Positions 5,034-56,748 of a stretch of 64,000 nt of DNA are shown one piece after another. The stretch covers positions 124,001-188,000 of the forward strand of contig JBFMCV010000001.1 in the NCBI GenBank assembly GCA_040754335.1, in the 5' to 3' direction. A program made the translations under genes and the position numbers. How positions within the stretch are numbered: position 1 is the stretch's first letter; each line of letters begins with the position of its first letter. The stretch is from Thermodesulfobacteriota bacterium. Its GTDB lineage: Bacteria > Desulfobacterota_D > UBA1144 > Nemesobacterales > UBA2774. The notes under the pieces are model-generated. The model ran no database searches. It was not told the origin of the DNA and saw nothing but the letters and a program-made list of their open reading frames with translations.

Positions 5034-5701
5034 GACCGCCGCGCCTGTCCTGAGCGAAGTCGCTCATCTCGATCAAAGCCCTAGCCCTAGCCGGGAAGGA
5101 TCGAAGTATGAACGGGTTTGAATTCGTTGCTGATTTGAGCAGAGGACTTGGAAGGAATCGTAAAACAGATTATATGATTGGTTTATAAAAGAATAAGAGA
5201 CAACTAAATTCTTTCTTCTTTTCCTTGATGAAAAGAAGCAAAAATCATCCGACTACACAGAATTTCGGCTAAAATCGTTCGTAAACGCTAAAAATCTATC
5301 AATTCCGCCCCAAATAGCATGGTAGTTTAGTGATGTCCGAAGCTAATTAACTTCTTTCTGATAGGGAAGGGCGTCCGAATGCGCGCTCGCTTGCATTCGT
5401 TCCCTGATAGATTTTTCCGTGCGTTTGCGACCGATTCCTTAACGCCGATTCTGTGAATGTCGGTAAAACGACAAAGCAAAGAAAAAACCGTTCGTACTGA
5501 GGCGCAGAACCTGCGCTCGTATACGATCCTTAAATCACTCCACTGATTTAACGGAATAATGGACCCAAGATAATCCTGAACTCGCTGTCCTTGCGTGCCA
5601 TCTCCTGAGCGAAGTCGAAGGATCGAAGTATGAATGGTTTAGTATTGGAGACGTTAAACGGAGGAGTTGGAAGGGATCATAGAACGCACTATGTGCGTGT
5701 G
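5034..5701. repeat. Repeat-rich intergenic region
   Basis: No gene is credible here. Two related blocks, 5047-5178 and 5603-5695, both carry TCCTGAGCGAAGTCG, AAGGATCGAAGTATGAA and a GGAG/CTTGGAAGG.ATC tail; the first has about 35 extra bases inside. GGCGCAG...TATACGATCCT at 5501-5530 recurs at 46897-46926 with two mismatches. The TCCTGAGCGAAGTCGAAGGA type of sequence belongs to a REP-like family widespread in bacterial genomes. Confidence 0.6.
5249..5463. repeat. Imperfect inverted repeat (MITE-like)
   Basis: The arm 5249-5301, reverse-complemented, aligns with 5405-5463: both begin TGATAGATTTTT and end near ATTCTGTG...GTCGG with moderate mismatches between. The 103-base spacer holds a second hairpin, CGAATGC...GCATTCG with flanking GGGAA/TTCCC. 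No coding capacity. This looks like a small non-autonomous element or its remnant. Confidence 0.45.
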
Positions 5702-15919: not shown

Positions 15920-15996
<77 letters not shown>

Positions 15997-40748: not shown

Positions 40749-40794
40749 CGGACTTCTAATCCGTAGGTCGGGGATTCGAATCCCTCCGGGCGCG
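40749..40794 (+). repeat. Right attachment-site repeat (attR)
   Basis: 46-base copy of the 3' half of tRNA-Arg, one mismatch (G to A in the T-stem). The 5' half of the tRNA is absent, so it is not a functional tRNA. It marks the distal boundary of the island. Confidence 0.85.
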
Positions 40795-41144
40795 TACCTC
40801 CTTCCCTGGACACAGTGACATCGTTGCATTCATCCAAGGGCGTCCGGTTCCTCCTATTCGTCGGAACCGTTCCCTCCGGGCGCGCACCTCCTTCCCTGGA
40901 CACAGTGACATCGTTGCATTCATCCAGGGGCGTCCGGTTCCTCCTATTCGTCGGAACCGTTCCCTCCGGGCGCGATCCACTTTCCCGAAGTAAACACAGG
41001 GTGATGCCATTTTCCGACAGCGACCGATTCCTCCTATTTTGGATTTAGACTCCTCATCACTTCGATTAAAGGACTCGCCCAAATTAGACCGATTTCTCAC
41101 TAGTTCGAAATCGTTGCTCGCAATCGTTCCCTCCGGGCCCGCCA
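40795..41144 (+). repeat. Tandem units ending in the tRNA-Arg 3' tail
   Basis: Two adjacent 90-base units (40795-40884 and 40885-40974) are identical but for two bases and each ends CGTTCCCTCCGGGCGCG, the tRNA acceptor end. Each also has the inverted pair GGTTCC...GGAACC. A third, diverged and longer unit (40975-41144) keeps the same opening and middle and ends CCCTCCGGGCCCGCCA, including CCA. No protein should be called here: the long minus-strand frame is an artefact of the repeat. Confidence 0.8.
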
Positions 41145-54513: not shown

Positions 54514-56748
54514 TCATTCCGACTCGGGGCGGTTTATGCGCTCTGCCGGCGGGAGCGGAGGCAGATGAACCTCCGCCGCTCCGAGAGGCAACCCCGCTCC
54601 GTGGCAGTTTTTACAATCGCTTTCCGACTGTGGACCCGCCTGGTGATTTTCACCGGTCAGAGCGTTTCCTGCCGCATTTACACCCACATTGTCATGACAT
54701 GATACGCATGCATCAATCACTGGCTGGGTCGAGAAAGTGGCTAGTACCACGTTCTCTTCGCCGACTTTTTCAAATTCCCTGAAGAAGGAAGCTTGAATTC
54801 CGTTTCCTAAGACCCCTACTCCCGGACTGAGTGTGTTCGTGTTTGGAAGATGGCACGCCCTGCAATCGCTCGTGTTCCCGGGATAGAGGACTTCGCTGAA
54901 ATCGTGCAGGCTCCCCATGAAGCCGTATATAATATAAGGCTTCAGAGAGAGGTTCTCGCCCGTATGTATCTTGTGGATCATCTCCTTGAAATCAATCGAC
55001 GCCGTAGTGGGTGTCAGGCTTCCCGTCCAGTCGGGCACCGGCCTTACCTCTATGTCGTCGCTCGACGGGTTGTGGCAGAGGACGCAGTATTCGGTGTTGT
55101 TGCGGAGGTTTCCGTGGACGCGGAAGTCCTTGGAGAACACACCGTGACAGGAATTGCAGAATTCGTCCTCGGTGGAGTTGTCGACCACGACCCTCCTCGG
55201 CACCGGCACGGCATCAGTGACGGCGAAGTAGCGGACTTCGTTCCTCCCCGCCTCTTCGACTTCCTCGAACAGTATCAGGTTCTCACCGCCGACCATCCTC
55301 ACGATCCTACCCTCAATACCCACGGCATACGTTCCGGTGGCATTATCCGGGATTATTCCCTCGAACGTGTACGTGTAGTTTCCTTCCGCATCTGGCCCTT
55401 CTGCGCTTTCCGGGGACTCGCGGAGGAAATTATCTACACCGGGGGTTTCCACACCTGTCCCGCTGTAATCCTGTATGAAGTAATCCGTTGTAGGTCCCGC
55501 TATTACGAGGCTTATGGAGTCCATATCCGCGATGTCCACTACCTCGCCCGCATCCGTCTTGATGCTGAACGTGACTTCCGCGTGGTCGCCGGGACGGACC
55601 CTCGCCTGGCCTGTCTCGGCGCTCCTCACGTCGACTATGGCGAAGTTGAGTCCGGGGAGGCTCGAAGCCTTGAGCGGTACCGTGTGTGAGCCCGTGACAG
55701 AGATATCGAACTCTGTATTCGACTGCGGGATGTGACACCCCGAGCAGTTGTTGTCGTTTAGCTGCACGACGGGGTGATTCTCAGCAGTGGCGAAGTCGAC
55801 ATTGTCGTGGCACGAGCCGCAGGAAGCCCTTGTCGGGTCGTTCTTGTAGTCGACAGCCTGGGTCGCGAGGGATTCGTCGTGACACTTGGTGCAGTTCCTG
55901 TTGTCCTGCGGGAACACCACTGTCGAATAGTCGTGCACAGATCCCATGAAGCCGACTATGAAATAGGGGTTCCCCGCTTCGACGCTCGGGAGCATCTCCC
56001 CCATGTGTATCTTGTGGATCATAATATTGAAGCCGATATTGTTGCCCGAATCGGGATCTATCTGGTCGACTGTCACGCCTTCGGGAGTAATGATCTTGCT
56101 CGAATGGCAGGTTATACAGACGCCCACGTCCCTCCTGACCCCGCCGTGGAGCGCGAGCGGGTCGTGGCAGTTATTGCAGGATTCGGTCGCTACTATGTCC
56201 CTCACGGTCCTGACCTCGCCGCCGTTCGGGACGAAGTCGAATGTCGCATTCGACACCCATGTCTGACTGTCTATCGTCTTTTCGCCGTATAATGCTACCG
56301 TGTGAGTCTGTCCTCTGTTATAATCGCCGGGCAGCATCGTGGCGAATGTATAGTTGTACATGCCTCCGCCGAGGTCCTGATATTCGCCTTCGTCCTCCGA
56401 GTCTGCCTGTGTGGCGCCATTCTGATCCCTCGTAATGTAATCGATGTACTCACCGCTCTCGACTATCCGCGCGATTATAAAGCTTATCTCTACCCCGTCT
56501 CTGCTTATCGGGTTCCCGTTCTCATCGGTGAGCTTGATCATCGCGACAGGACGATTGTCGTCACCAATAAAGGCGTCGAGTATCTCTATATTCAGCTTGT
56601 TCCCGTCGAAGGGCGGCGGCGGAATTACGCCTCCTCCACCGTTGCTGCAACCACCATAGACGGATATGAGAAGGAATGGCACCAAAATAAGACGGGACAG
56701 GAAAAACAGGAAGACATTGTCGCCAGGGTCTTTTACCCAGCCAAGCAT
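54514..56748 (-). CDS. OmcA/MtrC-family decahaem outer-membrane lipoprotein
   Basis: 744 residues, a cell-surface terminal reductase for electron transfer to metals or other extracellular acceptors. Lipobox Cys34 (SVYGGC). Ten CXXCH sites in two pentahaem sets: residues 191, 211, 286, 310, 335 and 531, 555, 629, 681, 712. The two halves repeat internally: MIHKIHMGE...GFMGSVHD and MIHKIHTGE...GFMGSLHD. Between them are beta domains like those of OmcA/MtrC. GGGAGGAGGATAACT precedes the ATG. A 22-base element upstream is shared with the next cytochrome gene. Confidence 0.93.
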   Translation of the reverse strand: MLGWVKDPGDNVFLFFLSRLILVPFLLISVYGGCSNGGGGVIPPPPFDGNKLNIEILDAFIGDDNRPVAMIKLTDENGNPISRDGVEISFIIARIVESGEYIDYITRDQNGATQADSEDEGEYQDLGGGMYNYTFATMLPGDYNRGQTHTVALYGEKTIDSQTWVSNATFDFVPNGGEVRTVRDIVATESCNNCHDPLALHGGVRRDVGVCITCHSSKIITPEGVTVDQIDPDSGNNIGFNIMIHKIHMGEMLPSVEAGNPYFIVGFMGSVHDYSTVVFPQDNRNCTKCHDESLATQAVDYKNDPTRASCGSCHDNVDFATAENHPVVQLNDNNCSGCHIPQSNTEFDISVTGSHTVPLKASSLPGLNFAIVDVRSAETGQARVRPGDHAEVTFSIKTDAGEVVDIADMDSISLVIAGPTTDYFIQDYSGTGVETPGVDNFLRESPESAEGPDAEGNYTYTFEGIIPDNATGTYAVGIEGRIVRMVGGENLILFEEVEEAGRNEVRYFAVTDAVPVPRRVVVDNSTEDEFCNSCHGVFSKDFRVHGNLRNNTEYCVLCHNPSSDDIEVRPVPDWTGSLTPTTASIDFKEMIHKIHTGENLSLKPYIIYGFMGSLHDFSEVLYPGNTSDCRACHLPNTNTLSPGVGVLGNGIQASFFREFEKVGEENVVLATFSTQPVIDACVSCHDNVGVNAAGNALTGENHQAGPQSESDCKNCHGAGLPLGAAEVHLPPLPPAERINRPESE

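Follow-up and report, generated by a model that had tools for sequence, protein, structure and literature searches.

The tandem array at 40749-41144 of the window (the whole 64,000-nucleotide stretch analyzed) is a tRNA-tail repeat of known architecture; its new part is the dispersed, loop-seeking palindrome that it contains. The stack is probably the work of this tiny repeat of mobile type, not of the neighboring island. When tRNA tails are repeated in tandem next to an island, they are readily mistaken for attachment-site scars; the comparison presented here shows that a process both older and independent has acted at several tRNA genes. On balance, we favor an origin in which a palindromic, non-autonomous element inserted serially at the T-arm of the tRNA gene and units were in addition duplicated locally.

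The array and the neighboring island

The features of the window on which the analysis rests are as follows.

5327-5401, + strand: further dispersed copy of the element (model R1, 34.4 bits)
15920-15996, + strand: intact tRNA-Arg(tct) with CCA, at the left end of the island (ARAGORN; Rfam tRNA, 75.7 bits)
15997-40748, unstranded: island at tRNA-Arg(tct) (GC drop; Pfam; absent between tRNA and array in congeners)
40749-40794, + strand: attR, the displaced 3' part of tRNA-Arg(tct) (46-bp match to 15948-15993)
40781-40794, + strand: first tRNA tail, TCCCTCCGGGCGCG, closing attR (attR match)
40795-40871, + strand: element 1, with hairpin CGGTTCC (40845-40851) / GGAACCG (40863-40869) (model R1, 80.6 bits)
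40871-40884, + strand: second tRNA tail, TCCCTCCGGGCGCG (sequence comparison of units)
40885-40961, + strand: element 2, near-identical to element 1 (98%; model R1, 80.2 bits)
40961-40974, + strand: third tRNA tail, TCCCTCCGGGCGCG (sequence comparison of units)
40975-41128, + strand: element 3, its hairpin loop broken by a nested copy (model R1 at 40975-41046, 31.5 bits; sequence reading)
41036-41115, + strand: nested dispersed-type copy inside the hairpin loop of element 3 (model R1 at 41087-41115, 25.9 bits; end motif analysis)
41128-41144, + strand: last tRNA tail, one base changed, plus CCA (sequence reading)

The original neighbor of the array is tRNA-Arg(tct) at 15920-15996: attR is 98% identical over 46 bp to positions 15948-15993 of this gene, 25 kb away, and the 46 repeated bases are the stretch just before its CCA. 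As the initial annotation described, attR is followed by two 90-bp units (40781-40870 and 40871-40960) that are identical at 88 of 90 positions, each unit contains a GGTTCC (40846-40851, 40936-40941) / GGAACC (40863-40868, 40953-40958) pair, and the units bear the tRNA 3' tail, the final one with CCA (41142-41144). The array is not a product of chance, because Tandem Repeats Finder assigns it a score of 374 at a 98% match. Each unit in the window combines a 12-14-nt tRNA tail with an element of ~75 bp bearing the hairpin. The third unit, annotated as diverged and longer, is indeed longer, but it is not merely diverged, since a second element of the family, starting with ATTTTGGATTT and ending with GAAATCGTT (41036-41115), is nested in its hairpin loop. 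The last tail reads TCCCTCCGGGCCCG (41128-41141), one base off the others.

The island carries genes for RND efflux, a phosphoketolase, a heavy-metal P-type ATPase and an ABC-2 exporter (Pfam), and no integrase was recognized among the ORFs of 15997-40748 tested with Pfam. In three congeners (G001, G002 and G003) the array directly follows an intact tRNA-Arg(tct) with no island in between, and the gene upstream of the tRNA in G002 and G003 is that of the window (81-83% identity over 1.5 kb). The number of units at this tRNA varies by species (three in the window's genome, G000, two in G001, one in G002 and two in G003), all genomes compared being MAGs or drafts, in some of which short tandem arrays are possibly collapsed or broken. 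In G007, G008, G011 and G012 tRNA-Arg(tct) has no array (0 units), the array being absent at this site outside the genus. Together, the island-free arrays of congeners and these array-free relatives indicate that the array arose within the lineage, before the island. The initial annotation suggested that the array would offer several alternative recombination points; island integration used the full 46-bp site and has displaced the older array by 25 kb from tRNA-Arg(tct). Elsewhere in the window, 54514-56748 encodes a 744-aa protein with MtrC/MtrF-like outer-membrane cytochrome domains.

Arrays behind other tRNA genes and in relatives

When the window's own genome, that of a Dadabacteria relative (3.26 Mb, 98% complete), was searched with the array, partial copies turned up at many places. 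A survey of its tRNA genes located further tail copies at +88 and +177 of tRNA-Arg(acg) and at +88 of tRNA-Glu(ttc), and three more at the displaced end of tRNA-Arg(cct) at C2:72.5 kb, ~54 kb downstream of the intact gene and on the same strand. This displaced end belongs to a second island of ~54 kb at tRNA-Arg(cct) (L043, G000:C2:72500-126585), in which a tyrosine integrase adjoins the tRNA and whose far end holds the displaced tRNA end with a three-unit array, paralleling the Arg(tct) locus. Among relatives, tails recur at +87, +176 and +263 of Arg(acg) in G001 and at +88 of Arg(cct) in G006; Glu arrays occur in G002, G003 and G006, and G004 has a single unit at Arg(acg). In eight array steps, covering four tRNA types and four genomes, the element between tails measures 74-77 bp, the tail 12-14 nt and the period 87-89. 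The 3' strand of the acceptor stem starts with CGGG in the four array tRNAs and, by eye, in none of the other surveyed tRNAs, a link that may be only a reflection of their shared tails.

The distal units look older than the proximal ones. G001 and G003 have the distal unit in common, with a decayed tail (TCAAGAYGCCC) between units, while their proximal units differ, and the distal unit of the window has an altered tail and the nested insertion. Recombination or conversion has also had a part in forming the arrays: the Arg(acg) array of G001 is an A-B-A series whose first and third units are identical, and hairpins are swapped between array units. The tRNA-Glu of G006 reads CCCCTTGGGG, and its unit tail bears the same variant T; a repeat of tail plus flank that carries the local variant base is the pattern that would be expected from a target duplication restoring the tRNA.

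Other arrangements occur at several loci. At tRNA-Arg(acg) of G007 (L236) a 225-bp unit ending in a tail with CCA contains an incomplete copy of the tRNA together with a reversed element. At L103, L011, L031 and L101 a different palindromic repeat, ACACAATGTGTGCTCATA, comes immediately after tRNA tails or the ends of arrays. At tRNA-Ala(cgc) (L045), tail copies with CCA at +363 and +1159, both with a TCAGGGGGTTGC-type flank, are probably true integration scars, different in kind from the array.

A dispersed family of palindromes in hairpin loops

The inner element is ~75-90 bp long, has no coding capacity and occurs in many intergenic copies. An alignment of 17 copies has a mean column identity of 73% and contains a 7-bp hairpin near the 3' end, in which five of the seven pairs show compensating changes. 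Of the hairpin cells 92% are paired; the figure for shuffles is 81% and, with the partner slid, never exceeds 51%. Double changes number 15 against 4.7 in shuffles. A model built from this alignment detects at least 137 copies in the window's genome, a lower bound with 150 of 884 candidates scored. Model searches found the element in 11 of 44 relatives, all of one family; G000-G003, G005, G006 and G009 have it, whereas G004, G007, G008, G011 and G012 have few copies or none. Scanning named genomes for the pattern yielded a single contig, from a Candidatus Dadabacteria MAG corresponding to G002; phage and plasmid sequences gave no match.

More than 100 of the copies are dispersed and lack the tRNA tail. 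Most of these start with ATTTTGGNTT or AATTTGGNTT and reach a GTT end 86-92 bp further on; scored for the 5' motif ATTTTGG/AATTTGG-NTT, 61 of 95 copies reach 9-10 of 10, as do 11 of 475 shuffles. The family prefers the loops of inverted repeats, its own kind included. Dispersed copies tend to lie between the arms of other inverted repeats, among them the element's own hairpin as well as gagattgc..gcaatgaca, gagatgctgaa..ttcagcatgaca and cctccct..ggaggga, and the copy at 5327-5401 of the window occupies the loop of another such repeat with 12-bp flanking arms. Flanking arms of 73 anchored copies pair with a mean of −10.7 kcal/mol, compared with −7.0 when partners are permuted, the lowest of 30 permutation means being −8.1 kcal/mol. 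A test of the longest exact arms is weaker than the anchored duplex test and has the same direction (arms of at least 7 in 46% vs 17% permuted). Members of one inverted-repeat family measure 137-138 bp between landmarks when filled and 45-50 bp when empty, and the surplus is accounted for by the element lodged in the loop. This comparison is between paralogous repeats, and loss could in principle explain the difference. No orthologous empty site for a dispersed copy was found in the one 18-kb congener region compared, which is strongly rearranged.

No transposase linked to the family was found. The genome has a single RAYT (Y1 transposase) gene (C8:99575; L213, G000:C8:99500-99970), which is preceded by another, GTAG-tagged palindrome, the REP GTAGGAGCGGCTTCCAGCCGCGA, common in the genome. 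This gene was considered as the mobilizer and rejected: it is flanked by that REP, and the nearest copy of the element is ~0.9 kb away.

Origin of the array

Junctions read from the sequences place the GTT end of the array element against the 3' strand of the T-arm stem (CCCTC.. of TTCGAAT-CCCTC), and the GTT end of dispersed copies likewise abuts the 3' strand of a stem. The opposite ends differ, arrays having the tRNA tail where dispersed copies have ATTTTGGNTT. Beyond the tail, units of the same array share 9-26 identical bases in 6 of 10 pairs, as against at most 6 in pairs from different arrays (one orthologous pair excepted). Conversion between units is a possible source of these shared bases. 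The sharing extends past a last tail in G004 and G006, which indicates that the direct repeat round the inserted hairpin comprises the tail plus flank, ~22-40 bp in all. We infer that the family moves by transposition and that these direct repeats are target duplications. Counting against insertion by one chemistry at both kinds of site, direct repeats of 22-40 bp are seen at tRNA arrays and none is evident at dispersed copies.

These observations have led us to favor a model whereby a palindromic element of ~75 bp would have inserted repeatedly at the 3' end of tRNA-Arg(tct), its GTT end joining the 3' strand of the T-arm stem as it joins hairpin stems at dispersed sites. Each insertion would leave a direct repeat made of the tRNA tail and some following bases, keeping the tRNA gene whole while the stack of tail, element and tail grows; new units would arise beside the tRNA and distal units decay. 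The first unit would later have been duplicated locally to give units 1 and 2, and the island would have integrated at the full tRNA site, carrying the array 25 kb off. A more specific version, which we offer tentatively as possible but doubtful, is that a mobile palindrome recognizes stem-loop DNA and takes the T-arm for a hairpin, that a long target duplication regenerates the tRNA 3' end, and that the insertions are stacked by age.

A different history would begin with one tail-element-tail unit per tRNA; slippage or unequal crossing-over between tails would then have lengthened and shortened the array, while gene conversion with dispersed copies swapped the hairpin halves. The two differences in 90 bases between units 1 and 2, the identical A units at Arg(acg) of G001, the near-uniform array at E. 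coli tyrV and the sharing of the first 9-26 post-tail bases by same-array units whose hairpin sides differ all speak for it. We nevertheless regard it as rather unlikely, because it leaves unexplained why the same element, joined at the T-stem, stands behind four tRNAs, each time with that tRNA's own tail, and why tail-plus-flank repeats occur at single units (Arg(acg) in G004, Arg(cct) in G006). The array has also been read as scars of island integration and excision or as an amplified attachment site. Islands of 25 kb and ~54 kb do occupy Arg(tct) and Arg(cct), respectively, and at Arg(cct) of G006 a 4.4-kb stretch has a tail-element-tail unit at either end (L104, G006:C18:355000-362500), as if the unit were part of an island's own attachment site. 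This explanation is largely refuted and highly improbable. Arrays exist without islands, as in G001, G002 and G003; arrays of the element also stand behind three other tRNAs; the units repeat just the last 12-14 nt of a 46-bp att that begins in the anticodon arm; and the inner 75 bp recurs throughout the genome and is no island end. Its presence behind tRNA-Glu and in the tail-less dispersed copies is the kind of result that the initial annotation had named as refuting its reading. Of the tandem amplification proposed in the initial annotation, the local duplication of two near-identical units stands and the amplification of an island attachment site does not. Island ends were also tried as the source of the unit and rejected: a GTTGCA-like motif behind the tRNA at several left ends has a count near chance (10/51 vs 14%), and a profile of the unit's 5' half has no match in the DNA beside island-bearing tRNAs.

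A selected function as a trailer RNA has been proposed for rtT in E. coli, and by analogy the tails and hairpins, transcribed together with the tRNA, could give rise to an RNA that is processed or regulatory and under selection. The covarying hairpin and an architecture like that of E. coli tyrV/rttR are consistent with this, but a mobile palindrome predicts hairpin covariation equally, the unit number ranges from 0 to 3 among relatives, the array of the window is severed from its tRNA, and an Rfam scan of 15500-42000 at E≤1 returned just the tRNA and weak chance matches, with no RtT match in the array; we consider such a function very remote. Casposons use tRNA 3' ends and make duplications of ~14 bp. 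A casposon-like insertion by Cas1, with a 14-bp duplication at the tRNA 3' end, is refuted for this genome, which is 98% complete and has no Cas1, and the elements are short and hairpin-based.

Serial insertion of the palindrome bears comparison with several known systems. YPAL/RU-2 of Yersinia is a non-coding palindromic sequence that targets sites spanning or next to dyad symmetry, with target duplications of 3-26 bp (PMC2229807). Like the present element, it has many short non-coding intergenic copies, an internal inverted repeat and a dyad-symmetry target, as expected of a bacterial MITE of this type; unlike it, YPAL is 168 bp long and lives in an unrelated host, the likeness being one of description, not of sequence, and the cited paper, in which the word tRNA does not occur, mentions no stacking behind tRNA genes. 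The REP families GTAG-15 of A. variabilis, GTAG-23 of T. roseum and CGTC-1 of H. neapolitanus lie inside palindromes (PMC3733652), and thus resemble the present family as palindromes within other palindromes. However, REPs are 20-40 bp long with a GTAG or CGTC tag (PMC3733652), whereas the element described here, of ~75-90 bp, lacks that plan, and its copies do not flank the Y1 transposase gene as in a REP/RAYT system. The insertion of IS1397, ISKpn1 and IS621 is also directed to REP palindromic units (PMC1525189), but these are protein-coding insertion sequences, and no such partner is linked to the present element.

The closest architecture is that of the rtT/tpr repeats at E. coli tyrV (tyrT). 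In MG1655, as checked here, 178-bp direct repeats follow tRNA-Tyr, and the last 19 nt of the tRNA (AATCCTTCCCCCACCACCA) recur in three further copies at +178, +356 and +534. In both systems tail-bearing tandem repeats stand directly behind a tRNA, and the tail begins where the T-loop ends. E. coli has one such tRNA with long, near-uniform units, whereas here four tRNAs carry units of 87-90 bp whose inner element belongs to a dispersed, genome-wide family; we know of no dispersed relatives of the E. coli tyrT repeats. If the insertion model is true, in its general form or in the hairpin-recognizing version, it would give tRNA-tail repeats of the E. coli tyrT kind an origin that can be tested, and the present family would be a clear case of mobile palindromes that pick hairpin loops, those of their own kind included.
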